64,000 bases of DNA from positions 1,211,501 through 1,275,500 of the forward strand of contig NZ_BLLN01000002.1 of NCBI RefSeq assembly GCF_011170125.1, read 5' to 3'. Of this stretch, positions 3,001 through 31,392 are shown piece by piece. The notes under the pieces were generated by a model, which worked only from the letters and a program-made list of their open reading frames with translations, searched no databases and had not been told where the DNA came from. Both the position numbers and the translations under genes were made by a program. Source of the stretch: Streptomyces diastaticus subsp. diastaticus. Lineage in GTDB: Bacteria; Actinomycetota; Actinomycetes; Streptomycetales; Streptomycetaceae. Position 1 is the stretch's first letter. Each line of letters starts with the position of its first letter.

Positions 3001-6000
3001 CGCCAGGCCCCGGCCAGTACCGCCAGGTCGTCCACGCCGTCCAGGACGAAGGTGAACTGCTCCAGGTAGGCGCCCCGCCCGGGCTCGTTCAGCGCGTGGA
3101 AGAGCATCCCCGACTGGAGCGGCGTCAGCGGATACACGTCCACCACGTCACCCGGCCGCCGCTCGCCGCCCGACAGGGTGATCCGGTCCACCTCGTCCTG
3201 GGTGAGCCGCACCAGGGGGAAGTCGGAGGGGGTGCAGCGGCCCGCGCCGGGCCGGGCGCAGTGCGCGAGGAGCTCGCGCAGCTCGGCCGTGTACCGCTCG
3301 GCCAGCGCCGCCACCGTCGCCCGCGCGTGCAGGTTCTCCGAGTACGTCCAGGTGAAGGTCAGCCGTCCGTCCTGGACGGCGCCGACCACCTCCAGGACGT
3401 GGCCGCGCGCCTCACCCGGGTGGTGCTCGCCGCCGGGGTTCAGCACGAGGGAGCGGGCCCAGCCGGAGCCGTCGGCCGCGCCGAAGTGCCCGAGGTAGTT
3501 GAAGGCCAGCTCGGGAGCGGGGGCCTCGGTGAGGCCGAGGGCCCGGTCTCCGGCCGGGCCCGGGTGGGTGGCGCGCAGGTACCGCAGCGCGCCGTATCCC
3601 ACTCCCTGCCCGGGGACGGCCCGCAGCCGCTCCTTGACGGCCGGGAGCAGCTCGCTCCAGTCCCCGGCCGCCTCGCCGGGGAGGTCGAGGGCGACGGGGT
3701 GGAGGGAGGTGAACCAGCCGACGGTACGGGTCAGGTCGACCTCGTCGAAGAGTTCCGCGCGGCCGTGCCCCTCCAGGTGCACGGCCAGCCGTCCCGATCC
3801 GGCCCACGGCCCGAGCGTGCGGGCCAGGGCCGCCAGGAGCACGTCGTTGGGCTGGGTGCGGTAGACGGACGGGACGGCGCGCAGCAGCGCGTCGGTCTCC
3901 TCCGCGGAGAGCCCGGCCGAGACCGAGCGTTCGCTGCCCACGGTGTTCGCCCCGCCCGGCAGGTCCACCGGAAGCCGGGTGCCGGCGTCCGCCAAGACGT
4001 CCTGCCAGTAGGGGAGTTCCGCGTCGAAACCGCCGTTGGCGGTGTGCTGCGCCAGCCGCTCGGCCCACTGCCGGACCGAGGTCCCCTTCGGGTCGTACTC
4101 CGGCTCGGCGCCCCCGGCGATCCGCCGGTACGCCGACTCCAGGTCCTCCAGGAGCACCCGCCACGACACCCCGTCCATCACCAGGTGGTGCGCGGCGATC
4201 AGGACCCGCACCGGCGCCTCGGGGGCGCCCGTCCCCACCAGTACGCGCACCAGCGGGCCCGTGCCGAGATCCAGCCCCGCGTGCGTCCGGGCGGCCAGTT
4301 CCGCCCAGGCGGCGTCGCCCTCGTCGGGGACGGCGGTGAAGACCGCGTCCACATCGACGGCGGTGCTGATCCGGCCCTCCCACCGGCCGTCCGGGAGCCG
4401 GGTGAAGGCGGAACGCAGCGCGTCGTGCCGCGCCAGCAGGGCCGCCACGGCGGCCCGTAGAGCGGCCAGGTCCGTACCGGCCGGGAGGAGGAATCCGGCG
4501 CCCATGTTGAAGTGGTGGGGCGCGACGGGGTGCGTGGCGAAGAACCACTCGCGGATCGGTGTCGTGACGACCTCGCCGCTCACCGGGCCCTGTTCGGCGA
4601 GGGTCTCGGCCGCGTCCTCGGCGGGCTGGACGGCCTGTGCGAGGGCGGCGACGGTCGGGTGGAGGAAGACGTCGCGGGAGGTGAGGGCGAGTCCGGCGCG
4701 GCGGGCGCGGGAGACCACCTGGAGGCTGATGATCGAGTCGCCGCCGAGGTCGAAGAAGTTGTCCTCCACGCCCACCCGTTCGCGGCCCAGCACCGTGGCC
4801 CAGATCTCGGCGAGGAGCCGCTCCGTCCCGGTGCGGGGCGCGAGGTGGGTGGCGGGGGCGGTCTCGACCTGGGGCGCGGGCAGGGCGGCCCGGTCGAGCT
4901 TGCCGGCGGCGTTGAGCGGTAGCGCGTCGAGGGTGACGAAGGCCGCGGGGAGCATGTGGTCCGGGAGCGTGCGGGCGAGGTGCGCCCGCACCTCGGCCGG
5001 GTCGGCCGGCTCCGGGCCGGTGGTGACGAGGTAGGCCACCAGGTACTTGGTCCCCGGCTGGTCCTCGCGGGCGACGACGGCGGCCTGGCCGGTCCCGGGA
5101 AGGGCGAGCAGGGCCGTCTCGATCTCGCCCGTCTCGATGCGGTGGCCGCGGACCTTGATCTGGTGGTCGTTGCGGCCCGCGTACTCCAGGGTGCCGTCGA
5201 GGTGGCGGCGGACCAGGTCCCCGGTGCGGTAGAGGCGGGCCCCCTGGTCGTAGGGGTGGGCGACGAAGCGTTCCGAGGTCAGGTGCGGCCGGCCGATGTA
5301 GCCGCGGGCGAGGCTGCCCGCGAGGTACAGCTCGCCCCAGGAACCGGCCGGGACGGGGTTGAGGGTCGCGTCCAGGACGTAGGCGCTCTTGCCCGCCAGG
5401 GGACGGCCGATGGGGACCGTGGTGGCCTTCGGGTCCGGGTTCTCGTGGGAGAACCAGCCGGTGGCGTACACGGTGGCCTCGGTCGGGCCGTAGATGTTGG
5501 CGACGGTGGTGTGCGGCAGGGCGCGGCGCGCCTGGTCGAGGAGTGTGGTGGGGAAGGCCTCGCCGGCCAGGATCAGCAGCTTCGGGTCCAGTCGGGTGGT
5601 CGGCTCGGCCACCAGCGCCTGGAAGGCGGAGGGGACGGCGGAGACGAGTGTGCCGTCCCAGGCGGGGTGGTCGGTGAGGCTGAGGATGTTGTGGGCGATC
5701 TCCAGAGTGCCGCCGGTGGCGAGGGTGCCGAAGAGTTCGAAGACGGAGACGTCGAAGTTGAGGCTGGTGGAGAAGAAGGTGTGGGCGAAGGTGTCTTCGC
5801 CGAGGGTGGTGGCCCAGGCGACGAGGCGGGCCATGGCGTGGTGCGGGACGACGACGCCCTTCGGCTTGCCGGTGGAGCCCGAGGTGTAGATGACGTACGC
5901 CGCGTTCTGCGGGGAGACGGCGGGGTGTGGCACGGGGCTGTCGTCGGTGGTGCGGGCCGCCTCGACGAGGGCGGCGTCCACGGTGAGGTGGGTGCCGCTG

Positions 6001-9000
6001 TCGCCGCGCATGTGCTCCAGGCGGTCGGCGGGGTACTCGGGGTCGAGCGGGACGTAGGCGGCGCCGGTCTTGAGGACGGCGAGGGCGGCGACGACCAGGT
6101 CGGGGGTGCGGGGCAGGGAGATGCCCACGCGCTTCTCGGGTCCGGCGCCGAGGGCGAGCAGGTGGCGGGCGAGCTGGTCGGCACGCCGGCCCAGCTCCGC
6201 GTAGGTGACGGAGGTGTCGCCGTGGCGGAGCGCGACCGCGTCCGGCGCGGCCGCCGTCCGCTCGGCGACCAGCTCCACGACCGTGCGGAAGGCCGCCGGT
6301 TCCGGTACGGCCTCGGACGGGGGCAGGAGGGCGGCGCGTTCGGCCGGCCCCAGCATGTCGTGCCGGGCCAGCGGCAGCCCGGGTGCTCGTACGGCCTGCT
6401 CGGTGAGGTGCAGCCAGTGGTGGCAGAGCCGGTCCACGGTGGCCGCGTCGAACAGGTCGGAGTTGTACTCGACCTCGGCCGTGAGCCGCCCGTCGGGCTC
6501 CGCGAAGAACTCCCACATGAGGTCGAACCGCGAGGAGGACCGGGGCACGGGCTGCCGCCGGGCAGGACGGCCCGCGAAGTCGGGGGCGAGGCCCAGGGAG
6601 TTCTGGAGGACCAGCAGAGCCTGGACGAGGGGACTGCGGCTCGGGTCGCGGTCGGCGCCGACCGCCTCCACCACCCGGTCGAACGGGGCCTCCTGATGGG
6701 CGAACGCCTCCAGCACCGTGGCGCGGACCTGCCGCAGGAAGGCGTCGAACGACACCCGCTCCTCCACCCGCTGCCGCAGCACCAGGGTGTTGACGAAGAA
6801 GCCGACCAGGTCCTCCAGCTCGGGCCGCTCACGCCCGGAGACCACCGTGCCGAGGGCGATGTCCCGGCGGCCGGTGTACCGCGAGAGGACCAGTTGGGTG
6901 ACAGCGGTCAGCGCCATGAAGAGGCTGGCGCCGCCCTCCCGCGCCACCGCGGTGAGCCGGGCCGTCAGCTCCGCCGGGACCTCGAAGGTGTGCAGGGCGC
7001 CCGCCGAGGTGCGCACGGCCGGGCGGGGCCGGTCGGCCGGCAGCTCCAGGGGCTCGGTCCCGGCGAGCTTCTCCCGCCAGTAGGACAGCTGGCCGTCGAA
7101 GGCGTCACCGGCCACCCGGTCGCGCTGCCAGGCGGCGAAGTCCGCGTATCGCACGGGCAGCGGCGGGAGTTCGGCCCGCTCGCCGCGTACCGCCCCCGCG
7201 TACAGGGTGCTCAGCTCGCGGGTGATCACCCCCATCGACCAGCCGTCCGTGGCGATGTGGTGCATCGAGAGGACCAGCACGGTGGCGCCCTCCCACGCGA
7301 GCCGCACCACCAGGACGCGGGCGGGCGGGCCGGTGCGCAGGTCGAACGGGGTGGCCTGCTCCGCCGCCAGCACCCGCCGCAGCTCCTCCTCACCGTCGGC
7401 GTCGACGGCGCGCAGGGGCAGTGGGAGCGCGGTGTGCACGGTCTGCGCGCCCTCGGCGAAGGTGGTCCGGAGCGGCTCGTGCCGCGCGACGAGGGCGTCC
7501 AGCGCGGTGCGCAGCGCGGTCAGGTCCAGCCCGCCGGCGACCCGCAGCGCGAGACCGGTGTTGTACTCGACGCCGCCGGGCGTGAACTCGTCGAGGAACC
7601 ACAGGCGTTCCTGCCCGGGGGAGAGCGGCAGCCGCGCCCCGTCGCGGGGCACGGCCGGGATCACCCCGCCGGGCTCGACGGCCCCACCGGCGCCCTCCCG
7701 CGTCAGCACGGCCGCCAGCCGGGCCGGGGTCGGGTGGTCGAAGAGGGCCCGGGCGGGCAGGTCGGCGCCGAGCGTGCGCCGCAGCCGCGAGGTCGCCTTC
7801 AGGGCGGCGACGGAGTCCCCGCCCAGCGCGAAGAAGTCGTCCTCGGCGCCGGCCCGTTCGATCCCGAGGAGATCGGCCCACAGGTCGCACAGGGCGCGCT
7901 CGGTGCTGCCGCGTGGCGCCACGTACGCGGCCGCCGCGGTGGTGCCGGGGGCGGGCAGGGCCCGGTGGTCGATCTTTCCGTTGGGGGTGAGCGGCAGCGC
8001 GTCGAGGGTGACGAAGGCGGCCGGGACCATGTACTCCGGCAGCGTCCGGGCGAGCCGGGCGCGCAGGGCGGCCGGGTCCTGCGGGGTGGCGGCCACCAGG
8101 TAGGCGGTGAGCCGCTTCGCGCCGGGGAGGTCCGCCCGGGCGACGACGCAGGCGCGGGTGACGGCCGGGTCGGCGAGGAGGGCCGCCTCGATCTCGCCCG
8201 GCTCGATGCGGTGGCCGCGGATCTTGACCTGGCCGTCGGTGCGGCCGAGGAAGTCGATCCGGCCGTCGGGGCGCCGCCGCACGAGGTCACCGGTGCGGTA
8301 CAGGCGCCCGCCCGGCCGGTGCGGGTCCGCGACGAACCGGGTGGCGGTGAGGTCGGGCCGGCCGTCGTAGCCGCGCGCGAGGCCGGCGCCGCCCAGGTAC
8401 AACTCGCCCGGGGTGCCCTCCGGCACCGGCGCCAGGGCGGCGTCCAGGATGTGGGCGCCGGTGTCGTCCATGGGGACGCCGAGCGGGACGTGGCTGTCGC
8501 GGGTGTCGGCGGGCGAGAGGGGGCCGCAGACGGCGAAGGTGGTCGTCTCGGTAGGACCGTAGACGTGGACCAGGGTGAGCCGCGGGACGGCCTCCTGGAC
8601 CCGGGCCATCGCCGCGGGCGAGGCGGCCTCGCCGCCCGTCCAGACCTCGCTGAGGCCGGTGAAGCACTCCGGGTCCTCCTCCGCGAGGAGGTCGAAGAGG
8701 GCCTTCGTGAGGAAGACGGCCCGCACCCCGTCCGCCACGGCCCGGCGCAGCACCGGCCCGCTGATCCCCTCCTCGGCGACCGTGACGGTGCCGCCGTTCA
8801 GCAGCGGCACCCAGATCTCGTAGGTGGCGGCGTCGAAGGAGTGCGGCGAGTGGAAGAGCACGTGCGCGTGGGCCCCGCCGCGCCAGCGCGAGTCGGCGGC
8901 CAGCGCGGTGATGTCCTCGTGGGTGACGGCCACCCCCTTGGGCACGCCGGTCGAGCCCGAGGTGAACATGACGTACGCGAGCGACGCCGGGCGGGGGGCC

Positions 9001-9437
9001 GCGGCGGGCAGGGGGGAGCTGCCCGCCGCGGTGTCCGGGTCCACCGGCAGCGCCGGGAGCCCGGCCACGGTGGAGCGGTCCCGGTCGGTGAGGACGAGCG
9101 AGGAGCGGCTCCGGGTGAGCAGGGCGCGGGTGCGCTCCTCGGGGTCGTCCGGATGCAGCGGGACGTACGCCGCTCCCGCCTTCAGCACCGCGAGCATCGC
9201 GACGACCACGTCCGCCGAGCGCGCCAGCAGCAGTCCCACCCGGGACTCGGCGCCCACGCCCCGCGCGACCAGGCCTCGCGCCAGCCCCTCGGCGCGCCGG
9301 TCGAGTTCGCGGTAGGTCAGGGTGCGTCCGCCGCACACCACGGCCACCGCGTCCGGACGCGCCGCCACGCGGGCCGCGAACCCCTCCACGACCGTCGCGT
9401 GCTGGACCGCCGGCATCGACCGCTCACCCTGGGACAT
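1..9437 (-). CDS. Non-ribosomal peptide synthetase, A-T-C-A-T-E-C-A-T (3' end beyond window)
   Basis: Multimodular peptide synthetase, 3145 complete codons visible and still open at base 1. The start is ATG at 9437 with GGAGAG about 6 nt upstream. Domains in order, approximate residues: A1 15-500 (FTSGSTGVPKG, YGPTETT, NGKID); T1 with LGGDS near 540; C with HHIATDG near 727; A2 1035-1500; T2 with LGGDS near 1567; epimerisation domain with HHLVMDG near 1753; a second C domain of the type that follows E, with HHLLLDG near 2237; A3 2550-3045; T3 with LGGDS near 3094. There is no N-terminal C domain, so module 1 is a loading module. Read against GrsA, the ten specificity residues are DAYFWGVTFK for both A1 and A3 and DVFSIAIVYK for A2. 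The first resembles codes for branched aliphatic residues; I assign no substrate firmly. Module 2 makes a D-residue. No thioesterase is visible; the upstream PBP-type cyclase could supply it. Confidence 0.93.
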   Translation of the reverse strand, partial: MSQGERSMPAVQHATVVEGFAARVAARPDAVAVVCGGRTLTYRELDRRAEGLARGLVARGVGAESRVGLLLARSADVVVAMLAVLKAGAAYVPLHPDDPEERTRALLTRSRSSLVLTDRDRSTVAGLPALPVDPDTAAGSSPLPAAAPRPASLAYVMFTSGSTGVPKGVAVTHEDITALAADSRWRGGAHAHVLFHSPHSFDAATYEIWVPLLNGGTVTVAEEGISGPVLRRAVADGVRAVFLTKALFDLLAEEDPECFTGLSEVWTGGEAASPAAMARVQEAVPRLTLVHVYGPTETTTFAVCGPLSPADTRDSHVPLGVPMDDTGAHILDAALAPVPEGTPGELYLGGAGLARGYDGRPDLTATRFVADPHRPGGRLYRTGDLVRRRPDGRIDFLGRTDGQVKIRGHRIEPGEIEAALLADPAVTRACVVARADLPGAKRLTAYLVAATPQDPAALRARLARTLPEYMVPAAFVTLDALPLTPNGKIDHRALPAPGTTAAAAYVAPRGSTERALCDLWADLLGIERAGAEDDFFALGGDSVAALKATSRLRRTLGADLPARALFDHPTPARLAAVLTREGAGGAVEPGGVIPAVPRDGARLPLSPGQERLWFLDEFTPGGVEYNTGLALRVAGGLDLTALRTALDALVARHEPLRTTFAEGAQTVHTALPLPLRAVDADGEEELRRVLAAEQATPFDLRTGPPARVLVVRLAWEGATVLVLSMHHIATDGWSMGVITRELSTLYAGAVRGERAELPPLPVRYADFAAWQRDRVAGDAFDGQLSYWREKLAGTEPLELPADRPRPAVRTSAGALHTFEVPAELTARLTAVAREGGASLFMALTAVTQLVLSRYTGRRDIALGTVVSGRERPELEDLVGFFVNTLVLRQRVEERVSFDAFLRQVRATVLEAFAHQEAPFDRVVEAVGADRDPSRSPLVQALLVLQNSLGLAPDFAGRPARRQPVPRSSSRFDLMWEFFAEPDGRLTAEVEYNSDLFDAATVDRLCHHWLHLTEQAVRAPGLPLARHDMLGPAERAALLPPSEAVPEPAAFRTVVELVAERTAAAPDAVALRHGDTSVTYAELGRRADQLARHLLALGAGPEKRVGISLPRTPDLVVAALAVLKTGAAYVPLDPEYPADRLEHMRGDSGTHLTVDAALVEAARTTDDSPVPHPAVSPQNAAYVIYTSGSTGKPKGVVVPHHAMARLVAWATTLGEDTFAHTFFSTSLNFDVSVFELFGTLATGGTLEIAHNILSLTDHPAWDGTLVSAVPSAFQALVAEPTTRLDPKLLILAGEAFPTTLLDQARRALPHTTVANIYGPTEATVYATGWFSHENPDPKATTVPIGRPLAGKSAYVLDATLNPVPAGSWGELYLAGSLARGYIGRPHLTSERFVAHPYDQGARLYRTGDLVRRHLDGTLEYAGRNDHQIKVRGHRIETGEIETALLALPGTGQAAVVAREDQPGTKYLVAYLVTTGPEPADPAEVRAHLARTLPDHMLPAAFVTLDALPLNAAGKLDRAALPAPQVETAPATHLAPRTGTERLLAEIWATVLGRERVGVEDNFFDLGGDSIISLQVVSRARRAGLALTSRDVFLHPTVAALAQAVQPAEDAAETLAEQGPVSGEVVTTPIREWFFATHPVAPHHFNMGAGFLLPAGTDLAALRAAVAALLARHDALRSAFTRLPDGRWEGRISTAVDVDAVFTAVPDEGDAAWAELAARTHAGLDLGTGPLVRVLVGTGAPEAPVRVLIAAHHLVMDGVSWRVLLEDLESAYRRIAGGAEPEYDPKGTSVRQWAERLAQHTANGGFDAELPYWQDVLADAGTRLPVDLPGGANTVGSERSVSAGLSAEETDALLRAVPSVYRTQPNDVLLAALARTLGPWAGSGRLAVHLEGHGRAELFDEVDLTRTVGWFTSLHPVALDLPGEAAGDWSELLPAVKERLRAVPGQGVGYGALRYLRATHPGPAGDRALGLTEAPAPELAFNYLGHFGAADGSGWARSLVLNPGGEHHPGEARGHVLEVVGAVQDGRLTFTWTYSENLHARATVAALAERYTAELRELLAHCARPGAGRCTPSDFPLVRLTQDEVDRITLSGGERRPGDVVDVYPLTPLQSGMLFHALNEPGRGAYLEQFTFVLDGVDDLAVLAGAWRQVVGASDALRVSVRWEGLPEPVQVVRREVLLPVEVLDWTARTGTEREASLAALLAGDRATGMELSGDGPLTRVTLAALPGERVRVVWTFHHLLLDGWSSAAVVADVVAAYAAARAGKPAGLPARGSFRDHLVWLAGRDRAAGLEFWRERLAGFAEPTALPYDRAPGDAHRSGSTGRHTARLGRAASAAVTAAARRHRVTPGTLAQAAWALTLAAHAGTTDVVFGTTVSGRPADLPGAESTVGLFINTVPVRVTTGPGERVGPWLRALGAAQAEATEYAHVPLHEIPAGPATGAALFDSLLVIENYPVTTGEGAGHGVGVRELDAVESTNYPLTLTVRPSDTLDVTVGHDPALFDTDTVERLADGFLRALTVLAEDTGDGLLAALPMLGEAERGRVLGEWSGSLGAPELHTSVPEAFARRVAAAPEAPAVRCGDLSFTYRELDARSDRVAAALRSRGVGAGARVGLLLRRSPDVVVAMLAVLKTGAAYVPLHPAHPVERMEQILGGAGAQLLVADAAAPHLPAGVGVLQLSEATRRAWAPAGVPSPSVPADEPAYIMSTSGSTGTPKGVTVTHRAVVALAADRRWRSRAHRHVLFHSPHSFDAATYEVWVPLLGGGCVEVAEEDLSAAVVRRAAGRGVAAVFLTTALFGALAEEDPACFAGLSEVWTGGEAASAPAMARMAAHCPATELVHVYGPTEATTFALSGPVTPDDTAGPGPVPLGRPMDDTLAYVLDGALRPVGVGVPGELYLGGPGLARGYDGQAPLTSARFVADPFGSGRRLYRSGDVVRRGPDGRLAFLGRGDGQVKIRGHRIELGEIEAALRARPDVGGVAVAARETRSGAKRLVAYVVPASGTTLDVPALREGLADRLPAYMVPSELVELAALPLTVNGKVDRRALPAPGDGDGGPEEGAAEHTAPLPGTQTVVAQVWAEVLGVERVGAHQDFFALGGDSIAGLKVVSRLRTRLGTGLSPRTLFDHPTVATLAEAVDAASAGDRPASGG

Positions 9438-9551
9438 CGTGGACTCTCCGGATTTCTCGAAACTGATGGCGCACGGACACAACGGCTCTGGGAAGGGAAG
9501 GCCGGAGCGCGGGCGGCCGCACCGCGGCGGCGCCCGTCCGGCCCCGAGGGG

Positions 9552-15230: not shown

Positions 15231-15485
15231 TCAGGCGGGTACGGCGGTCTGGGCCGCGCCCTGGGGCGCGGCCGGGACCCCGTCCATCTCGCGTATCAGG
15301 CTGGCGGGCCGCATGTCGGTCCAGTTCTTCTCGACGTAGTCGAGGCAGGACTGGCGGCTGTCCTCGCCGAAGACGACCGTCCAGCCGTCCGGCACCTTGG
15401 CGAACGTGGGCCACAGCGAGTGCTGGTTCTCGTCGTTGACCAGGACGTAGAAGACGCCGTTGTCGTCGTCGAACGGGTTCTCCAT
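15231..15485 (-). CDS. MbtH-like protein, NRPS adenylation chaperone
   Basis: 84-aa MbtH-like protein. It carries the whole family signature: [53 protein letters not shown]. These proteins bind A domains and are needed for their solubility or activity, so the natural partners are the A domains of the NRPS at 1-9437. The start at ATG 15485 has AGGAAAGGGAAA upstream. It stands alone between a terminator and a 175-nt gap rather than inside the NRPS operon, and so may be made separately. Confidence 0.95.
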
Positions 15486-15613
15486 GAGTTTCCCTTTCCT
15501 CATGTTGGGGTTCCGGTCAGATCCCGGTTCCCGCGGCATGGTCTCCCGGCCGTGTCGACCGGTTCAAAGTGTTTCGCCTGGGGTCGAACCGGCCCAGGCT
15601 GGTGCGGTCCGGT

Positions 15614-17919: not shown

Positions 17920-18838
17920 GACTCTCCCCCAAGGGCGCTCGCTGGGAAGCGGTCTCCCTGGAGTGCACGGGGGACGCGCCTTCGTCTCGGGGCGCCGGGG
18001 GGCTCCCGGGGCTCCCGCAGAGAACTTCACGTTCCTGCCGGCGCAGCGTAGGTCCGCCGATTCACCCCCCGCCACAGTTTCGGTCCTCGGCAAACCCCGT
18101 CGGGAGCGGGGACGCGGCGGCCCGGCCGGTCCGCTGCCGACGGGGCCGGGACGGGGCCGCCGCCGGCCCCGACGGCGTGCGAGGCCACGCGTGCCGACCG
18201 CGTGGGCGGGGCGACGGAACGGTGAGAACCAGCCACGGGCAGCCTTCCGCAGCGACCGGAACGGCCCCGCCGGGCGCCGGGGCCCGACCGGTCCGGGACC
18301 GCCGCGATGGCCGGGACACGCCCCCCGGCAGCCCCCTCCGGGCGGGCCCGTGCCCGCCGAGTCCCTCTCCGGGCGAAGTGGGCGGAGGCTCCACCGAGAC
18401 CCCGGTCCACGCGCCCAACCTCGTCACACGTAGTGATGGCGCCACCACGCCACCGGGTGCCGGTGCCCCCGTCCCCGGCCGCGCCCGGCTGAAACGGAAA
18501 GCCGGGAACGAGGCTGGGATCTTTCCCGGTCCCTCACGAGGTCCGCACCTGAAGAATTCATGATCGGCGTGGTGAATCGGCCATGGCGCCTCAAGGAACG
18601 CGGCACTGTCCGCGCGCCACCCGCCGTGGCACCGTCTGGCATGAGTCTGGACAGGAGCGGCCGCACGCGGGCGCCCCTGGCACCAACACCGCGAGGTATC
18701 CGCGCGCACGGCACCTGCCCTCCCCCGGAGACCGTCCGGCCGGGCGGGCAGCGGTACGGCGCTCCACCGTGAACCGGTGGAGGCGGACCGGCCGCGCGCC
18801 TGGCGCTCGGGTCCACCACTCATCAACGGGGGAAACAC
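17920..18838. other. 919-nt divergent intergenic region, no gene recognised
   Basis: It lies between the leftward aldehyde dehydrogenase gene and the rightward ArsR-like gene. Open frames here are GC-driven and lack homology or ribosome binding sites. A lower-GC patch with GAATTCATGATC at about 18556-18567 could hold promoter elements. Nothing else was identified. Confidence 0.6.
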
Positions 18839-19786
18839 ATGCAGAGGATTCACTTCTCAGCGGCTGACCTGGCCCGCACGCGTCTACAGAGCACGCTCGG
18901 GCCGGTCGCCGAGGGGATCTTCGCGCTCGGCGCGCTGGCCCACTCACGTAACGCGGAGTACGCCCGATGGCGTGGTGAGACCCTGGCGAGGCTCCGCGAC
19001 ACCTACTCCCTCAACCGTCCTCTGCTGCCCCTGCTCCGCTCGCTGCGCGCCCCCGACGACCTGCTCTTCCTCCTGGACTCCTCGCCGCAGGCCGACACCT
19101 CGGCGCTCTCCGCGCTCCACCTGAGCCGGACTGAGGTGACCCGGCTGGCCGTGGACATGTGGCGGGCGGGCGGCGCCCCCTACTGGGACCGCGTCCTGGA
19201 GCACCTCGACCACGAGTGCGCCGAGCACGGCCGGATCGTGATGACCGGCGGTGTGGAGCGCTTCCTCGCCACCCTCCACCCGAGGATCGTGTGGAACCCG
19301 CCGGTGCTGGAGATCCACGACGGCCCGGAGCGCGACATCCACCTCAAGGGGCGCGGCCTGCTGCTGAGCCCCTCCGCCTTCCTGCCGGGTCTGGTGGGCC
19401 GCGCGCTGCACGCCGAACGCGACAGCGGTCAGCCCGCGCTGGTCTTCGCCGTCCCCTCCGACGTCTCCCGGCTGTTCGCCCCGACCGACGAGGTGGACGC
19501 GATCAGCGGGGAGGCCCTGCGGGCACTGGTCGGCCAGACCCGCGCCGCCGCCCTGCGCGCGCTGACCAGCACCTGCACCACCAGCCAGCTCGCCGCGCGG
19601 CTCGGTGTCTCGCCGGGCAGCGCCAGCCAGCACGCCTCGGTACTGCGGGAGTCGGGGCTCATCACCACTCGCCGGGTCCGCAACTGCGCGCTCCACTCGG
19701 TGACCCCGCTGGGCATGGCGCTCCTCGGCGGCCGGCTGCGCACACCCGCGCCGGCCCCGCTGCACGTCACGAGCCCGGCCGCCTGA
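18839..19786 (+). CDS. ArsR-like winged-helix regulator with N-terminal sensor region
   Basis: 315-aa regulator. The last ~80 residues form an ArsR/GntR-like helix-turn-helix: RAAALRALTSTCTTSQLAAR, then LGVSPGSASQHASVLRESGL and ITTRRVRNCALHSVTPLG. The preceding ~220 residues are a family-specific region of unknown fold, as in long ArsR-type regulators found near biosynthetic clusters. Start ATG 18839 has GGGGGAAA 4 nt upstream. It is read towards the RiPP precursor and cyclodehydratase genes, 242 nt away, and a 19-bp palindrome lies between. It probably regulates that locus (inference). No metal-binding cysteines of classical ArsR are visible. Confidence 0.75.
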   Translation: MQRIHFSAADLARTRLQSTLGPVAEGIFALGALAHSRNAEYARWRGETLARLRDTYSLNRPLLPLLRSLRAPDDLLFLLDSSPQADTSALSALHLSRTEVTRLAVDMWRAGGAPYWDRVLEHLDHECAEHGRIVMTGGVERFLATLHPRIVWNPPVLEIHDGPERDIHLKGRGLLLSPSAFLPGLVGRALHAERDSGQPALVFAVPSDVSRLFAPTDEVDAISGEALRALVGQTRAAALRALTSTCTTSQLAARLGVSPGSASQHASVLRESGLITTRRVRNCALHSVTPLGMALLGGRLRTPAPAPLHVTSPAA

Positions 19787-19872: not shown

Positions 19873-19891
19873 GCCATGAGATTTTCATGGC
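19873..19891. promoter_or_regulatory. Palindrome GCCATGA-N5-TCATGGC upstream of the RiPP precursor
   Basis: Perfect 7+7 inverted repeat with the AT-rich spacer GATTT, 138 nt before the precursor ATG and 87 nt after the regulator gene. It is a candidate operator for the ArsR-like protein. Confidence 0.45.
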
Positions 19892-20028: not shown

Positions 20029-20205
20029 ATGAGCTCTGCCACGCTCTCCGCCCCGCGCTCCGACGGCGCGGCCACCTCCTCGCGCACCCTGATCATCGAG
20101 GACCTGGAGACCCTGCCCGAGCACGGCACCGCCCTCTTCACCATCTGCATCGCCGCCTCCCCGGCCGCGCCGGGCCCGGCCACCCGCGAGCAGCACCAGG
20201 CATGA
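20029..20205 (+). CDS. Putative RiPP precursor peptide (azole/azoline type)
   Basis: 58-aa peptide starting at ATG 20029 with GAAAGGG 11 nt upstream. Its stop overlaps the start of the cyclodehydratase gene (ATGA), so the two are translationally coupled. A Ser/Thr/Ala-rich N-terminus leads into an acidic hydrophobic motif LIIEDLETLPEHG, a plausible recognition leader. The C-terminal half, ALFTICIAASPAAPGP then ATREQHQA, is the presumed core and contains only Thr35, Thr38, Cys40, Ser44 and a late Thr as cyclisable residues. No typical poly-Cys/Ser/Thr core is present, which is unusual for this class. No cleavage site can be read. Function is inferred from context only. Confidence 0.65.
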   Translation: MSSATLSAPRSDGAATSSRTLIIEDLETLPEHGTALFTICIAASPAAPGPATREQHQA

Positions 20206-22493
20206 CCGTCCTCGGGGGACGCGGCCGTGAGCCCGCCGGTGGCCGCGTCGGGCCGATCGGCCTGAAGAGTCATCTGCGGGCGACCGTGGTACCGGGCGAA
20301 GCGGCGTACCTGGTCTCCCAGCGCGGGGTCACCGCGCTGCGCGGGACCCCGGCCGAGGTGCTGGTCCCCCTGCTCGACGGGACCCGCGACCAGGCCGCGG
20401 TGATCAACGACGCCGGGCCCGAGCTGACCGCCGAGGAGGCGGCCGGCTCGCTGCGCGCACTCGACGCGGCGGGCCTGCTCCGCGTGCGTACCCCCGAGAC
20501 GGCCGACCCGGCCACCGAGGCCTACTGGGACCTCGCCGGACCCGGCGCCCCCGACGCCCTGGCCGCCCTGGCCGGGACGGCGGTGGCGCTCGTCCCGCTC
20601 GCCGGCACCGACCCCGCCGGGGTCGCCGAGGCGTGCCGCGCCTCGGGCCTGACGGTGGCCGGCACGGCCGAGGAGGCCGACCTCTCCCTCGTCCTGTGCG
20701 ACGACTACCTCGACCCGGAACTCGCCGGGGTCGACGCCCGGCAGCGCACCGCGGGCACCCCCTGGCTGCCGGTCCGGCTGGGGTCGGCCGCGCTCTGGCT
20801 CGGACCCGTGCTGCGTCCGCACGACGGCCCGTGCTGGCACTGCCTCGCCACCCGGCTGCGCGGCCACCGGCACGCCGAGTGGCCGCTCCAGCGCGCGCTG
20901 GGGCAGGACGGCCCCGTGCGCCGCCCGCACGCCACACTCCCGGCCGGCCGCGCCGTCGCCACCCACCTGGCCGTCCTGGAGGCGGCCAAGTGGCTGGCCG
21001 GTGCCCGCGGCGCGAGCCACGACGGGCTGACCACCCTGGACACGGTGACGCTGGCCACCACCACCCACCCCACCGCCCGGCTGCCGCAGTGCGCGGTCTG
21101 CGGCGACCCGAGGCTGACGGCCCGCCGGATCGAGGCGCCGTTCGTGCCCGCCTCCCGCCCCAAGGCCGCCGGAGACCTCAACGGCCACCGGGCGCTGACC
21201 CCCGCCCAGATGCTGGAGCGGTACGGCCACCTGGTCGGGCCCGTCACCGGCGTCGTCAAGGAGATCCGCCGGGCGCCGGGCAGCCCCGGCTTCATCAGCG
21301 CGTATCTCTCCGGGCAGAACCTCGCCATGCGCAGCGGCACCCTCGCCGGACTGCGGGCGGGGCTGCGTTCGCTCAGCGGTGGCAAGGGGCTCAGCGACAC
21401 CGAGGCGCGGACCAGCGCGCTCTGCGAGGCCGTCGAGCGGTACAGCGGGACCCGGCAGGGCGACGAGCCGGTGGTGCGGGAGACCTACCGCGCGCTCGGC
21501 GACGAGGCCGTCCACCCGAACGCGTGCCAGCTCTTCCACGAGCGGCAGTTCGCCGACCGCGACCGCTGGAACTCAGGCGGCTCACACCTCCACCACGTGC
21601 CGCGCCGGTTCGACGAGGAGAGCCCCACCGAGTGGACCCCGGTCTGGTCGCTGACCCACCGGCGCCGCCGGCTGCTGCCGACCTCGTTGCTCTTCTTCGG
21701 CGAGCACGAGGCGCCGGACGGGCTGTGGGCCGATTCCAACGGCAACGCCGCCGGCAGCAGCCCCGAGGACGCGCTGGTCCAGGGGTTCCTGGAACTGGTC
21801 GAGCGGGACGCCGTCGCCCTGTGGTGGTACAACCGCACCCGTCATCCCGCCGTGGACCTCGACGCGTTCGGCGAGTCGTACATCGAGCGGCTGCGCGCCG
21901 GGTACCGGTCGGTGGGCCGCGAGGTGTGGGCGCTGGACCTCACCAGCGACCTCGGCATCCCGGTGGTCGCCGCGCTCTCCCGGCGCACCGACAAACCGGC
22001 CGAGGACATCGTCTTCGGCTTCGGCGCCCACTTCGACCCCCGGGTGGCGCTGCGCCGGGCCCTGACCGAGATGGGCCAACTGCTGCCGCTGGTCGGCGAG
22101 GTGACCGCCGACGGAGGCGGCTACCGGGTCACCGACCCCGAACCCCTCGACTGGTGGCGCCACGCCACCGCCGCCAACCGCCCCTACGTACGACCGGACC
22201 GGGCGGCCCCTGCCCGCACCCCGGACCACTGGTCCTACACCCCCGCCGGTGATCTTCTCCAGGACGTCAGGTCCATTACGGAACTATTGCGATCACGCGG
22301 CCTGGAGCTGCTGGTCCTGGACCAGACCAGACCGGACCTGGAACTTCCGGTTGTCAAGGTCCTGGTACCCGGACTCCGTCACTTCTGGCCCCGGTACGCC
22401 CCCGGCAGGCTGTACGACACGCCGGTGGAGCTGGGGTTGCGGACCGAGCCGTGCAGGCTGGAGGAGCTGAACCCGACGCCCCTCTTCGTCTGA
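20202..22493 (+). CDS. Fused Ocin-ThiF-like / YcaO cyclodehydratase
   Basis: 763-aa fusion. Residues ~1-340 form an E1-like (Ocin-ThiF) leader-binding part with two CxxC zinc motifs, CWHC near 210 and CAVC near 296. Residues ~360-763 form the YcaO ATPase with ALCEAVERYSG near 406, QGFLELVERDAVALWWYNR near 526 and ALTEMGQLLPL. The C-terminus ends NPTPLFV, a variant of the proline-rich tail important in azoline cyclodehydratases. Such enzymes use ATP to turn Cys/Ser/Thr of a precursor into azolines. It is coupled to the precursor gene by ATGA, with kinase and response-regulator genes downstream. No complete dehydrogenase is present. Confidence 0.9.
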   Translation: MTVLGGRGREPAGGRVGPIGLKSHLRATVVPGEAAYLVSQRGVTALRGTPAEVLVPLLDGTRDQAAVINDAGPELTAEEAAGSLRALDAAGLLRVRTPETADPATEAYWDLAGPGAPDALAALAGTAVALVPLAGTDPAGVAEACRASGLTVAGTAEEADLSLVLCDDYLDPELAGVDARQRTAGTPWLPVRLGSAALWLGPVLRPHDGPCWHCLATRLRGHRHAEWPLQRALGQDGPVRRPHATLPAGRAVATHLAVLEAAKWLAGARGASHDGLTTLDTVTLATTTHPTARLPQCAVCGDPRLTARRIEAPFVPASRPKAAGDLNGHRALTPAQMLERYGHLVGPVTGVVKEIRRAPGSPGFISAYLSGQNLAMRSGTLAGLRAGLRSLSGGKGLSDTEARTSALCEAVERYSGTRQGDEPVVRETYRALGDEAVHPNACQLFHERQFADRDRWNSGGSHLHHVPRRFDEESPTEWTPVWSLTHRRRRLLPTSLLFFGEHEAPDGLWADSNGNAAGSSPEDALVQGFLELVERDAVALWWYNRTRHPAVDLDAFGESYIERLRAGYRSVGREVWALDLTSDLGIPVVAALSRRTDKPAEDIVFGFGAHFDPRVALRRALTEMGQLLPLVGEVTADGGGYRVTDPEPLDWWRHATAANRPYVRPDRAAPARTPDHWSYTPAGDLLQDVRSITELLRSRGLELLVLDQTRPDLELPVVKVLVPGLRHFWPRYAPGRLYDTPVELGLRTEPCRLEELNPTPLFV

Positions 22494-22640
22494 TTCCGGT
22501 TGGCCCGGAACGCGTGCCGCCTCACCGGCGCCCGGACACCGCGCGCCGACGCCTCGCCATGATCCCGGCACAGTCTCCCCGCAGATCACTTACGCTCCTT
22601 GCGTAGCACGGAGGTTCGACGGGGGAAAGGCTGCGTACGG

Positions 22641-23906
22641 ATGAGACGGGGCGATGACGAACCACTGGAGGATTCCGGGTCGACCGGGAAGGCGAGACCG
22701 GACACCGAGGAGGAAGCCGCCACACCGGGAGCACGGGCCGACCACCTGTACCTCCCGGCGCCGAGACTGGCCCGGATCATCCTGGTCGTGGTGCTGCTCG
22801 GCTACCTCAGCGTCACCGCGATCAACCTCGCCGCGGCTCCGCACACCCGGTTCTCGCTGGTGCTCTCCTTCGTCTGCCAGGCCGGGGTCTTCCTGCTCCA
22901 GATCCGCCATTCGGGCGCGGGTGCCCGGCACGCGCCGCTGTGGGGGCGGTGCGTCACCCTCGGCTGCCAGGCGGCGCTGACCTACGTACCGCTGATCTTC
23001 TTCCGGTCCCAGTGGGGCTCGATGGCCGGCTTCCTCGCCGGGTCGCTGCTGCTCCTGCTGCCGCCGCGGCGTGCCTGGCCCGCCTACGGCCTCGTCGGCT
23101 CGACCATGGCGATCCCGCCGCTGCTGGAGGGCCTGCCGCTGCGCGACGCGTTCTACCTGGCGCAGTCCAGCCTGCTGACCGGGCTGGTGGTCTACGGGCT
23201 CTCGCGCCTGGCGGAACTGGTCAAGGCGCTGCACGACACCCGGATCGAGCTGACCCGGATGGCGGTCACGCAGGAACGGCTGCGCTTCGCCCGAGACCTG
23301 CACGACCTGCTCGGCTACAGCCTCTCCGTGATCACTCTGAAGAGCGAGCTGATCCACCGCCTGGTGCCCAGCCACCCCGAGCGGGCCATGGAGGAGGTCG
23401 GCGAGGTCCTCGCCGTCTCCCGGAAATCCCTCGCCGACGTGCGTTCGGTCGCCGCCGGCCTGCGCGGGATGTCGCTGGAGCAGGAGCTGGCCTCGGCCGA
23501 GTCGCTGCTGCGGTCCGCGGATGTCACGGTCCACAGCGACATCCGGCTCGGCGAGATCGATCCGCAGGTTGACACGGTGCTGGCGGCGGTCGCCCGAGAG
23601 GCGATCACCAACCTGCTGCGCCACTCGCGGGCCTCGGTCTGCGCCATCACGTCCGTCCAGGACGACGGCGTGGTCCGGCTCCGTATCTCCAACGACGGGG
23701 TCGACCCCTCCTACCGCGACGTCTCGCCGCACAGCGGCAGCGGTCTGGGCAACCTGGAGACGCGGCTGGGGGCGGTCTCCGGCCGGCTCTCCGTCTCCCG
23801 GGCGGGGGACGAGACCTTCACCCTCATCGCGGAGGTACCCGCGCACCCGGCCCCCGGGGCCCCCGCCCGGAGGGCCGAGGCGTACGCCCAGGGCCCCACC
23901 GCCTGA
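22641..23906 (+). CDS. Sensor histidine kinase, NarL/DesK type
   Basis: 421-aa kinase. A 45-residue charged N-terminus is followed by about five membrane helices (residues ~48-190) with very short external loops, suggesting sensing within the membrane as in DesK. The HisKA_3 dimerisation segment has the phospho-accepting His in FARDLHDLLGYSLSVITLK. The ATP lid region has AREAITNLLRHS and GSGLGNLETRLGAVSG. ATG 22641 was chosen (GGAAAGG 10 nt upstream); TTG at 22599 is an in-frame alternative. It pairs with the regulator 41 nt downstream and sits right behind the YcaO gene, so it may control or respond to the RiPP product (inference). Confidence 0.88.
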   Translation: MRRGDDEPLEDSGSTGKARPDTEEEAATPGARADHLYLPAPRLARIILVVVLLGYLSVTAINLAAAPHTRFSLVLSFVCQAGVFLLQIRHSGAGARHAPLWGRCVTLGCQAALTYVPLIFFRSQWGSMAGFLAGSLLLLLPPRRAWPAYGLVGSTMAIPPLLEGLPLRDAFYLAQSSLLTGLVVYGLSRLAELVKALHDTRIELTRMAVTQERLRFARDLHDLLGYSLSVITLKSELIHRLVPSHPERAMEEVGEVLAVSRKSLADVRSVAAGLRGMSLEQELASAESLLRSADVTVHSDIRLGEIDPQVDTVLAAVAREAITNLLRHSRASVCAITSVQDDGVVRLRISNDGVDPSYRDVSPHSGSGLGNLETRLGAVSGRLSVSRAGDETFTLIAEVPAHPAPGAPARRAEAYAQGPTA

Positions 23907-23947
23907 CCGCACCAGCAACCCCCGAACGAACCTGAGGAGCGGCCTCC

Positions 23948-24559
23948 ATGGCGATACGCATCCTGCTGGCCGAGGACATGCACATGGTCCGCGGCGCCCT
24001 GGTCGCCCTGCTGAACCTGGAGAACGACCTGGAGGTCGTCTGCGAGGTCGGCCGCGGCGACGACATCGTGCCGAGTGCGCTGGAACACCGGCCGGACATC
24101 GCGATCATCGACATCGACCTGCCCGGGATCGACGGGCTCACCGCGGCGGCGCGGCTGCGCGAGTCGCTGCCCGAGTGCCGGACGTTGATCCTGACCAATC
24201 TCGGGCGTCCCGGCACCCTGCGCCGTGCCCTCTCGGCGCACGTCTCCGGCTACCTGCTCAAGGACGCCCCGCCGCACGAACTGGCCACCGCCGTACGGCG
24301 GGTGGTGGCCGGCCACCGGGTCATCGACCCCCAGCTCGCCCTCTCGGCGTGGGACGGCGCCGACAGCCCGCTCACCGAGCGGGAGACGGAAGTGCTGCGG
24401 CTGGTCGCGCAGGGCTGGGAGCCGGGCGAGATCGCCAAGGAGCTGCACCTTTCGGCCGGGACGGTCCGCAACTACCTGACCACGGTGGTCTCCAAGCTCA
24501 ACGCCCGCAACCGGGTGGACGCGATCAGGATCGCGCAGGCCTCCGACTGGTTGCTGTGA
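23948..24559 (+). CDS. Response regulator, NarL/FixJ (LuxR) family
   Basis: 203-aa regulator. In the receiver domain (1-120) the acidic pair is AEDMHMV, the phospho-acceptor Asp is in IAIIDIDLPGIDGL and the Lys is in LLKDAPPHE. The LuxR-type HTH (140-203) reads LTERETEVLRLVAQGWEPGE, IAKELHLSAGTVRNYLTTVV, SKLNARNRVDAI. It has GAGGAG 6 nt before ATG. It is the cognate partner of the preceding kinase and is DesR-like in size and HTH. A terminator hairpin begins directly after the stop. Confidence 0.92.
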   Translation: MAIRILLAEDMHMVRGALVALLNLENDLEVVCEVGRGDDIVPSALEHRPDIAIIDIDLPGIDGLTAAARLRESLPECRTLILTNLGRPGTLRRALSAHVSGYLLKDAPPHELATAVRRVVAGHRVIDPQLALSAWDGADSPLTERETEVLRLVAQGWEPGEIAKELHLSAGTVRNYLTTVVSKLNARNRVDAIRIAQASDWLL

Positions 24560-24577
24560 GGCCGCCCGGCGGCGGCC
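24560..24577. terminator. Short hairpin between the response regulator and the SagB-like gene
   Basis: GGCCGCC-cggc-GGCGGCC, a 7-bp perfect stem starting at the first base after the stop codon, between convergent genes. Confidence 0.5.
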
Positions 24578-24591
24578 GGGGGGCTTTGGGG

Positions 24592-25272
24592 TCAGGAGAC
24601 CGCCGGCGGCTCCCCCGCCGGGGCGGGGCGCGGCCCGTGGACCGGCGCGGCCATCCCGGCGGCGGTCAGATAGCCGATCACCCCCGTGGGCACCACGCCG
24701 GGTACCGGCAGCACGTCGGCGGCGGCCTCCGGGGTCACGGGCCAGCCCAGCAGCGAGGCGACCAACGCCGCCTCCGGCCGGTGCAGCAGGACACGGTGCG
24801 AGGCGGCCGCCGAACTCAGCGCGAAGCCGCCGCTCTCCGGGGTCAGTGAGACCTCGTCCATCAGCCGCATCGCCTGCCGGGGCGGCGGCCGGACCGGGAC
24901 GAACGGGGCGGGCCGGACCACGGGAACGGCCGAAAGCAGCGGTCCGCCCAGATCGTCGATGGCCAGGGTGCGCACCACGAGGTGGGAGATGCCGCCCAGA
25001 GCCCGGGCCAGCGCGGGGTCGTCGCTGCCGACCGGGAGCGCTCCCCGCGGCGCGGACGCTTCGCGGCGCCCCGGGGCGAGGTTGGCGAGCAGCACGGGCC
25101 CGAGCTGCATCCGCCGCAGCGCCTCCCGTACCAGCGGGGACGCCTCGGCCACCCGGTCGGTGCCGTTCGGCCCGGTCAGGACGATTCCGTCACCGGAGGC
25201 GTCGTCCTCGATGCCGATGTCCTCACCGAGGGACCAGAGGTGCATCGCGCTGTGCCCGTCCGCCTTTCTCAC
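24592..25272 (-). CDS. SagB/ThcOx N-terminal-domain-like protein lacking the flavin domain
   Basis: 226-aa protein, start GTG 25272 with GAGGGG 5 nt upstream; ATG 25245 is an alternative. It shows two related blocks as found before the nitroreductase domain of actinobacterial SagB-type dehydrogenases. Block 1 has LWSLGEDIGI, LVREALRRMQLGPVLLANLA and ISHLVVRTLAIDDLGGPLLS. Block 2 has SAAASHRVLLHRPEAALVAS, then LLGWPVTPEAAADVLPVP and VIGYLTAAGM. In complete enzymes an FMN-binding nitroreductase domain follows; here the gene stops shortly after AAGM, and the next sequence belongs to the convergent regulator gene. It is either a stand-alone accessory or binding domain or a decayed dehydrogenase. 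The family call rests on my memory of the domain pattern. Confidence 0.45.
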   Translation of the reverse strand: MRKADGHSAMHLWSLGEDIGIEDDASGDGIVLTGPNGTDRVAEASPLVREALRRMQLGPVLLANLAPGRREASAPRGALPVGSDDPALARALGGISHLVVRTLAIDDLGGPLLSAVPVVRPAPFVPVRPPPRQAMRLMDEVSLTPESGGFALSSAAASHRVLLHRPEAALVASLLGWPVTPEAAADVLPVPGVVPTGVIGYLTAAGMAAPVHGPRPAPAGEPPAVS

Positions 25273-25443
25273 GCTGCCCCTCGGTCCGTTGCGTGCAAGC
25301 TGTTTACTCGCCAGTATCCCGGGTCGCCCGCTGTGCCGGGCAGCGAGGGAATCACCAATCAGACATGCGGATTTCATGGCCGCGCCACCGCGCGCCGGAT
25401 TGATCGGAGCACGCGCACGGCATATGCCGCGCCGGCGGAGCCG

Positions 25444-27452: not shown

Positions 27453-27483
27453 GGCCCCAGCCTAGATGCGAGAGACTGACTCC

Positions 27484-28626
27484 ATGACGGAGACGATGAT
27501 CGGCATCGGCGGCGGCGCGGAGAGCACCGACATGGTGCTCAACATCGGCCCCCAGCACCCCTCCACCCATGGTGTGCTCAGGCTGCGCATCGTGCTCGAC
27601 GGGGAACGGGTCGTCTCGGCCGAACCGGTCGTCGGCTACATGCACCGGGGTGCCGAGAAACTCTTCGAGGCGCGTGACTACCGGCAGATCGTCATGCTCG
27701 CCAACCGCCACGACTGGCTGTCGGCTTTCTGCAACGAGCTGGGTGTGGTCATCGCGGTCGAGCGGATGCTCGGCATGGAGGTGCCCGAGCGGGCCGTCTG
27801 GCTGCGGACGCTGCTGGCCGAGCTGAACCGGGTGCTGAACCACCTGATGTTCCTCGGCTCGTACCCCCTCGAACTCGGCGGCATCACGCCGATGTTCCAC
27901 GCCTTCACCGAGCGCGAGGAGCTCCAGGCCGTCATGGAGGAACTCTCCGGCGGCCGGATGCACTACATGTTCAACCGGGTCGGTGGCCTCAAGGAGGACC
28001 TGCCGGCGGGCTGGCCCGGGCGTGCCCGTGCCGCCGTCGCCGGCGTCCGGGCCCGCATGGACGTCTTCGACCGGCTCGTCCTCGGCAACGAGATCTTCCG
28101 CGGCCGTACCCGGGGCATCGGAGTCCTCAGCCAGGAGCACGTCCACGCCTACGGGGTCAGCGGCCCCATCGCCCGTGCCTCCGGCGTCGACTTCGACCTG
28201 CGCCGCGACGAGCCCTACCTCGCCTACGGGGAGCTCGCCGACGTCCTGGAGGTCGTCACCCGGGAGGAGGGCGACTGCCTGGCCCGCTTCGAGTGCCTGC
28301 TGGAGCAGACCTACAACTCCCTCGACCTCGCCGACGCCTGCCTCGACCGGTACGCCGAGCTGCCGCCCGGCCCCGTCAACCAGCGGCTGCCCAAGGTGCT
28401 GAAGGCCCCCGAGGGCCACACCTACGCCTGGACCGAGAACCCGCTCGGCATCAACGGCTACTACCTGGTCAGCAAGGGGGAGAAGACGCCCTACCGGCTC
28501 AAGCTCCGTTCCGCCTCGTACAACAACATCCAGGCGCTGGCCGTCCTGTTGCCGGGCACCCTCGTCGCCGACATGGTCTCCATCCTGGGCTCGCTCTTCT
28601 TCGTGGTCGGGGACATCGACAAGTAG
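27484..28626 (+). CDS. nuoD2: NADH-quinone oxidoreductase subunit D-like protein (orphan NuoD2)
   Basis: 380-aa homologue of the 49-kDa complex I subunit. It contains [61 protein letters not shown], and at the C-terminus [39 protein letters not shown]. Length fits NuoD. No other nuo gene is nearby, so this is a paralogue outside the main operon. It still carries the quinone-site His and the Arg following HGVL. Start ATG 27484 was chosen (conserved MTETxxGIGGxxES); ATG 27466 is possible. It faces a MidA/NDUFAF7-type methyltransferase, whose human relative modifies this very subunit. Confidence 0.9.
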
Positions 28627-31226: not shown

Positions 31227-31392
31227 CATCCTCGGCGGACCGCCCGGACGAGCGGCCCCCGCCCGCGAGGCCGCCCCTCGCCGGCACCGGGAAGGACCGG
31301 TCCCGGCCTGGCTCCGCCAGGCACCGTCCCGGAAGTACGGCGCGGGACAGCAGTACGACGCAGGACCCGAACAGGACAGGGAAGGGATTCGC

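Follow-up and report, generated by a model that had tools for sequence, protein, structure and literature searches.

The window analysed in this work is a stretch of 64,000 nt from Streptomyces diastaticus subsp. diastaticus (GCF_011170125.1, contig NZ_BLLN01000002.1; genome of 7.08 Mb, G000), which contains a short gene for a 58-aa peptide followed by the gene of a fused Ocin-ThiF/YcaO cyclodehydratase. An initial annotation, made from the sequence alone, had described this pair as an azol(in)e locus specifying a ribosomally synthesized and post-translationally modified peptide (RiPP), with two open reading frames (ORFs) coupled by ATGA, a single Cys in the likely core and a two-component pair downstream. 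All of this was borne out: both ORFs were located as claimed, the larger one scored above the cut-offs of TIGR03882 and TIGR03604, and a sensor histidine kinase and a NarL/LuxR-type response regulator follow (Table 1). No protease, exporter or complete dehydrogenase of the pathway was found among the ten window proteins scanned with profiles, again as annotated.

Table 1. Features of the module and its surroundings in the window (operator scores are those of the position weight matrix described below)
Feature	Position	Strand	Remarks
Multimodular nonribosomal peptide synthetase (NRPS), presumed regulated cluster	3..9482	-	truncated by window edge; 3 condensation, 3 AMP-binding and 3 carrier stretches
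MbtH-like gene of NRPS cluster	15231..15539	-	named by reading the sequence, without profile search
Operator-like site, 275 bp upstream of ArsR-type regulator	18546..18564	.	score 15.8; identical in L004
Regulator with C-terminal ArsR-type helix-turn-helix, possible output regulator	18839..19786	+	PF01022
Palindromic operator GCCATGAGATTTTCATGGC of precursor operon	19873..19891	.	score 24.4
Precursor peptide, 58 aa	20029..20205	+	recognition-like motif LIIEDLE, residues 21-27; core approximately ALFTICIAAS, residues 35-44
Fused leader-binding/Ocin-ThiF/YcaO cyclodehydratase, 763 aa	20202..22493	+	TIGR03882, TIGR03604, PF02624; LynD/TruD matches
Sensor histidine kinase	22641..23906	+	HisKA_3; H-box RDLHD; hydropathy
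NarL/LuxR-type response regulator, presumed operator binder	23948..24559	+	Response_reg and GerE
sagBN, stand-alone N-terminal part of ThcOx/SagB-type dehydrogenase	24592..25245	-	alignment; nitroreductase domain lacking
Operator-like site upstream of sagBN	25362..25380	.	score 14.2; identical in L004

A precursor family beside a cyanobactin-type cyclodehydratase

At E<=1e-30, the cyclodehydratase had matches in 87 of the 295 genomes sampled from the genus, a count that takes in the genome of the window and a few YcaO proteins of about 30-36% identity, and in 41 named loci as well; the list used for kinase linkage comprised 82 genomes. In total, 106 loci were oriented and 100 were retained as non-redundant. 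The YcaO protein of the window is 90% identical to that of a Streptomyces albidoflavus locus (L004). Neighbouring genes were called by base composition, and because the caller misses or inverts some of them, the genes for the histidine kinase, the response regulator and the Streptomyces antibiotic regulatory protein (SARP) were recounted by tblastn.

Nearly the entire window enzyme can be aligned with LynD (residues 21-761; 4v1t, E 1.1e-156) and TruD (residues 19-761; 4bs9, E 1e-154). It is therefore a fused heterocyclase of the type known from cyanobactins, and its YcaO and leader-binding domains are those found in thiazole/oxazole-modified microcin (TOMM) pathways. The annotation had considered that the protein might act instead as a backbone-modifying YcaO. 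This is not favoured by the LynD/TruD alignment, and TfuA (PF07812) had no match in the genome of the window and was found in two of 10 module genomes, in both cases elsewhere in the genome. A thioamidating YcaO-TfuA system was rejected on these two grounds, LynD homology and the lack of TfuA in the strain's own genome.

A motif resembling LVIEDL was revealed by a regular expression in ORFs upstream of the cyclodehydratase in 73 of 99 loci, against 4/99 on the antisense strand and 2/99, 0/99 and 0/99 in three shuffles. Upstream of neighbouring genes it was also rare (kinase 3/83, regulator 4/84, SARP 1/65, ketosynthase 2/33, acetyl-CoA carboxylase 0/22). The expression was composed by eye after the first loci had been inspected, so the weight rests on these controls. 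The expression with its controls was preferred to a hidden Markov model of the precursor, which reached E<0.01 in 95 of the 98 loci with a match and had been trained on the identical set. Between the window and the S. albidoflavus precursor, identity is 96% over residues 20-45, 74% over residues 1-19 and 54% over residues 46-58. By these comparisons the 58-aa ORF is a member of a fast-diverging family of putative precursors in which a short core accompanies a recognition-like motif (LVIEDLD). On the strength of its conservation, an artefact was rejected as an explanation of the ORF; the initial annotation had named lack of conservation among relatives with the same YcaO gene as the outcome that would speak against its reading.

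Twenty precursors were aligned over the core, 18 of the 21 from loci whose YcaO is at least 60% identical to that of the window plus two others (L104 and L101); the three left aside were L008, for which there was no upstream sequence, L080, whose core is repeated, and L086, a weak match with different T/C spacing. One column, filled in all 20 sequences, holds Cys in 17 and Thr in three, so that precursors without Cys in this column carry another cyclisable residue there. The cyclisable column preceding it holds Thr or Ser in 19; the twentieth (L083) has a gap there and reads F-C-V-T. Cys, Ser and Thr make up 19% of all residues in these precursors. The repeated core of L080 contains FTFCA three times and QFTFCAQPD twice. 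Cores of other clades carry CxC, GCYSG or other arrangements, and 21 of 98 loci fall outside a stricter motif. Thus, a conserved precursor ORF with a recognition motif and cyclisable core residues, as in linear azol(in)e-containing peptide (LAP) and other TOMM pathways, adjoins its cyclodehydratase, and the annotated reading of an azol(in)e precursor with an unusually Cys-poor core is supported.

The SagB-type genes of the family take two forms. A full SagB follows the YcaO gene in 15 loci, and that of L019 is homologous to ThcOx (5lq4, E 2.6e-54). A separate gene for the N-terminal part only, sagBN, occurs in 18 of 100 loci; it lies on the opposite strand beyond the regulator in 14 of these (the window counted) and between YcaO and kinase in four. 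The sagBN product had no Pfam or NCBIfam match at the E-values used.

Two further kinds of YcaO locus were noticed as well. Near a second, distant YcaO of the same strain (L002, C5; 32% identity) there is a Ser/Thr/Cys-rich 58-aa ORF, which resembles an ordinary azole or thiopeptide precursor. Two Amycolatopsis loci (L029 and L042) combine a YcaO relative with upstream ORFs containing Cys-bearing repeats, and gave no match to operator, kinase or regulator; these are perhaps a product-making form of the family.

Linkage to a kinase, a regulator and a shared operator

The annotated reading of a minimal, self-sufficient locus is not supported. In the fetched stretches, a kinase of this type was found by tblastn in 95 of 100 loci, the response regulator in 93 and a SARP in 72. 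The kinase lies within 6 kb of YcaO at 77 of 84 YcaO places, and, conversely, 79 of the 93 best kinase matches adjoin a YcaO. The conserved unit consequently holds a kinase, a regulator, a shared operator and often a SARP, and it adjoins other clusters; a stand-alone LAP locus was rejected because of the linked kinase, regulator and operator. The N-terminus of the window kinase has two strongly hydrophobic stretches by hydropathy (residues 35-68 and 70-89).

The palindrome TGAAA-N-TTTCA was found upstream of the precursor at a score of at least 11 in 94 of 98 loci, using a position weight matrix (PWM) trained on the very promoters it scores; shuffled sequence reached this score in 0.7% of cases and stretches internal to YcaO in 0/98. 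The PWM had taken the place of a first pattern that found only 34/98 loci. The palindrome is followed at fixed distances by GTGA, GCACTGT and a box resembling CAGAAT. Two of the four loci below the threshold are those from Amycolatopsis, where kinase and regulator matches are also absent; the others are L127 and L005.

In 1.66 Mb of sequence, 106 sites scored at least 16, where shuffled sequence would give 2.3. Of these, 89 lay in the precursor stretch; the other 17 were at sagBN (10), SARP (four) or other genes (three). With the threshold set at 12, sites were found at (i) 48 of 54 SARP genes that share the precursor promoter and seven of 18 SARP genes elsewhere, (ii) 13 of 18 sagBN genes, and (iii) two of 87 regulator genes, both divergent from a SARP. 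None was present at 80 kinase genes away from the precursor, at 15 full SagB genes or at 282 genes of fourteen labelled biosynthetic and transport families. An operator is thus common to the putative signal gene, itself linked to kinase and regulator, and to candidate output genes, as in an autoinduction module; the linked response regulator would be the protein that binds it.

An out-of-sample set consisted of 18 loci that have a related kinase but lack an adjacent YcaO; they were picked by eye and had played no part in training the PWM. In two of them (L135 and L140) the absence of YcaO cannot be judged on their short contigs, and the genome of a third (L151) has a YcaO elsewhere on the same contig. 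Sites of at least 12 occur in nine of the 18 (ten sites in all, where 0.8 would be expected); in eight of these loci they lie at a SARP and in the ninth at sagBN. A SARP match was obtained in 10 loci; seven of the nine loci lacking a site also lack a SARP match, while L138 and L147 have one without a site. Support for the proposed wiring from regulator to SARP is therefore not confined to the promoters on which the PWM was trained.

Two arrangements met in this survey deserve mention. Locus L141 (G051) has a tandem kinase, a regulator and a sagBN with a strong operator, and no YcaO match was found in the 18 kb fetched; it is a possible receiver-only locus. In G177 the module is split (L133/L151): kinase, regulator, SARP and sagBN share a contig with YcaO and precursor but lie some 57 kb away, and there is one operator at the precursor and another at the SARP.

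Covariation between the peptide and the kinase was analysed in 64 of the 100 loci, the remainder lacking the motif, the kinase, the regulator or an intact frame. Core distances correlated with distances of the kinase sensor half (partial r 0.32, p 0.002, controlling for YcaO, kinase half, regulator and leader). The corresponding value for leader and sensor half was -0.06 (p 0.96), and that for core and YcaO given the rest was 0.04. Thinning the set to 40 loci gave 0.29 (p 0.001) for core and sensor and -0.09 for the leader. Given YcaO alone, the core gave 0.13 with the kinase half and -0.07 with the regulator. The covariation of core and sensor fits what would be expected of a ligand and its receptor, and we take it as support, not proof.

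The neighbouring clusters are unrelated, comprising type II polyketide synthase (PKS) clusters, sugar/glycosyltransferase clusters and, in the window, an NRPS cluster. A type II PKS ketosynthase was found in 34 of 100 loci, a glycosyltransferase in 13 and a fatty acyl-AMP ligase (FAAL) match in 34, with no class marker in 48. Four class labels placed on a quick YcaO tree (92 rows) require 20 changes (minimum 3; mean after shuffling 40.1), so the module tends to descend with its cluster type and has nevertheless switched partners.

Upstream of the module in the window lie the ArsR-type regulator gene, an aldehyde dehydrogenase, a hydrolase, the MbtH-like gene and the large NRPS. The ArsR-type family is present in four of 100 loci and the MbtH-like gene in seven, the window counted. 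A counterpart of the site upstream of the ArsR-type gene was found in L043 (score 14.8, similar offset), and in the window this site is followed by a GCACTGTCCG box at a spacing differing from that of the precursor promoter. In the whole genome, a strict operator pattern occurs at three places including the precursor site; the reversed pattern likewise matched three times, which puts the two additional places at the level of chance. Some further genes may be recorded: the minus-strand NRPS (3-9482 and L152) is continued outside the window by same-strand ORFs of >2600 and >3700 aa, NRPS-like by reading only; a gene for a NuoD-like NADH dehydrogenase subunit lies at 27466-28626, with no further nuo gene among the neighbours scanned; and a second kinase-regulator pair lies at 30021-32082, about 5.5 kb downstream of the first.

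A proposed signalling role and its alternatives

We propose, as a reading somewhat better than even, that the locus is a cluster-situated peptide signalling module, in which a ribosomal azol(in)e pheromone is sensed by its own kinase, feeds back on its operon and activates the activator of the neighbouring cluster. In such a module the front of the cyclodehydratase, similar to a RiPP recognition element, would grip the LVIEDLD-type motif, and the Thr/Ser and Cys of the short hydrophobic core (typically T-x-C in the kin of the window) would be cyclised to azolines, with further oxidation possible in lineages that have a full ThcOx-type SagB. The cleaved peptide would leave the cell and be detected by the hydrophobic sensor half of the adjoining kinase. 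The phosphorylated regulator would then bind TGAAA-N-TTTCA, raising transcription of the precursor operon (positive feedback) and of sagBN, and would turn on the cluster activator, a SARP in many relatives and possibly the ArsR-type regulator in the window, where the latter would act on the adjacent NRPS cluster.

Several observations weigh against this proposal. In the window the chain is weakest at its last step, the connection to the NRPS: no SARP is present, the third operator is weak (15.8) and stands 275 bp from the ArsR-type gene, and no site was found in 19 kb of NRPS sequence beyond the window. In the supported clade of 20 rows to which the window belongs, tblastn gave no SARP match for 16, namely the window itself and 15 others, so that the case for SARP control comes from other clades; in this clade the output is probably sagBN and, less surely, the ArsR-type regulator. 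The operator itself is imperfectly distributed, apart from the circular training of its PWM: L005 has kinase and regulator and yet its precursor promoter scores 3.9, that of L127 scores 9.1, 11 of the 18 SARPs that do not share the precursor promoter have no site of at least 12, and such a site does occur at 12 of the 542 unlabelled genes lying apart from the precursor. Units of kinase, regulator, SARP and operator also exist where no YcaO adjoins them, so the kinase need not depend on the peptide. No recurrent exporter or protease was found among the labelled neighbours. Finally, for distant pairs the core-sensor correlation falls to 0.16 (p 0.002; leader -0.08), and in a first run core and kinase given YcaO gave 0.14 and yet reached p 0.001, which means that the p values are liberal and that the contrast between parts of the proteins weighs more.

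The most serious alternative is that the modified peptide is an end product of antibiotic type that shares its regulation with the neighbouring cluster, the two-component pair serving it as a nisin-like circuit of autoinduction. Many bacteriocin loci have such a pair, and here the operator drives the precursor operon, the cores diverge fast and are repeated in L080, and a SARP is mostly lacking in the clade of the window. The covariation does not decide the matter, since autoinduction predicts it too. However, no immunity gene recurs among the labelled neighbours, nor any exporter, and the operator also marks SARP promoters, even in loci with no YcaO beside them; we regard an end product as rather unlikely.

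Less probable still is an action inside the cell, in which the leader or the modified core, as a ligand of sagBN or some other protein, tunes the kinase-regulator chain without export. It would accord with the failure to recognise an exporter or protease, with the placing of sagBN under the same operator and with its retention in L141, a kinase locus without YcaO. Against it, the sagBN family is found in only 18 of 100 loci, and the core covaries with the hydrophobic half of the kinase, suggesting sensing at the membrane. That the azol(in)e peptide is incorporated as a building block into the polyketide or NRPS product of the adjacent cluster, giving a hybrid RiPP, we consider very improbable, since, for all its position within or beside PKS and NRPS clusters and the FAAL matches in 34/100 loci, the module adjoins unrelated cluster types with no joining enzyme common to all, and its core covaries with the kinase sensor.

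If the pheromone proposal is extended, the module could represent a new class of bacterial hormone: ribosomal azol(in)e peptides, produced through a heterocyclase of cyanobactin type in roughly a quarter of the genomes sampled from the genus, each with its co-evolving kinase and with one conserved operator leading to activators of unrelated antibiotic clusters. Strains with kinase, operator and sagBN and no adjacent YcaO (for example, L141) would be receivers, and the catalytically headless SagB a peptide-binding modulator. We advance this extension tentatively, as a possibility a little short of even. In Streptomyces, a large number of biosynthetic clusters stay silent under laboratory conditions, and for most of their two-component systems the ligand is unknown. 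Were the proposal true, the inducing ligand of dozens of clusters would be encoded by a short ORF beside the kinase and would be predictable, synthesisable and able to wake the cluster; cyanobactin-type chemistry would gain a regulatory role, and soil bacteria a new class of chemical signal. The orthologous locus of the S. albidoflavus strain (L004) makes this testable in a species used in the laboratory.

Comparison with known systems

No description of the module was found in the literature among the matches listed, where the nearest precedents were goadsporin, NosP and Os1348; a search on YcaO together with type II polyketides and SARP returned no paper, with thin coverage of subscription journals and bioRxiv. 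Goadsporin is a Streptomyces peptide with six azoles and two dehydroalanines (PMC5303826), for which the passages concerned describe a fused TOMM cyclodehydratase and promotion of secondary metabolism at low concentration; unlike the module, its pathway has its own dehydratase and dehydrogenase (PMC4603692). NosP, a regulator of nosiheptide, is described as concerned with the own RiPP pathway of the precursor, whereas the proposed target of the module is a separate cluster reached through a two-component pair. In Pseudomonas sp. Os17, loss of the small nitrile-hydratase-like precursor Os1348 lowers antibiotic activity; this system differs in being Gac-controlled, and its authors report no homologue of sagA, sagC or sagD in the genome (PMC7726476). 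The gene table of the naphthocyclinone type II PKS cluster lists a SARP, a two-component sensor kinase and a response-regulator match, and the text on this cluster, unlike what we see in the module, mentions neither YcaO nor ThiF (PMC10697411).

As regards nitrile hydratase leader peptide (NHLP) TOMMs (TIGR04351), the precursors of four long-leader relatives match this family over the leader (E 4.5e-9 to 1.8e-13), all below the curated cut-off of 65 bits, and those of a fifth relative (L080) and of the window did not match; membership is thus not indicated. The D proteins of cyanobactins and NHLP TOMMs group together, and the passages on NHLP TOMM peptides ascribe no regulatory role to them (PMC4603692).

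The closest likeness is to the cyanobactin enzymes LynD/TruD and ThcOx (CyaGox), in the near full-length homology of the cyclodehydratase and the homology of the full SagB of L019 to ThcOx. The alternating hydrophobic and Thr/Cys pattern of the module core resembles that of patellamide cores. The differences are also clear. PatA/PatG-type subtilisin proteases were not found nearby, which places the module outside the cyanobactins as defined: in 10 module genomes, among the matches listed, no subtilisin (PF00082) lies within 100 kb of the YcaO gene, all eight of the strain's own genome being covered. In the kin of the window the oxidase is absent or cut to its N-terminal part. The precursor is short with few Cys residues, and a kinase, a regulator and a shared operator are added. 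By analogy, the module would work like peptide autoinduction loci, using cyanobactin-type chemistry.

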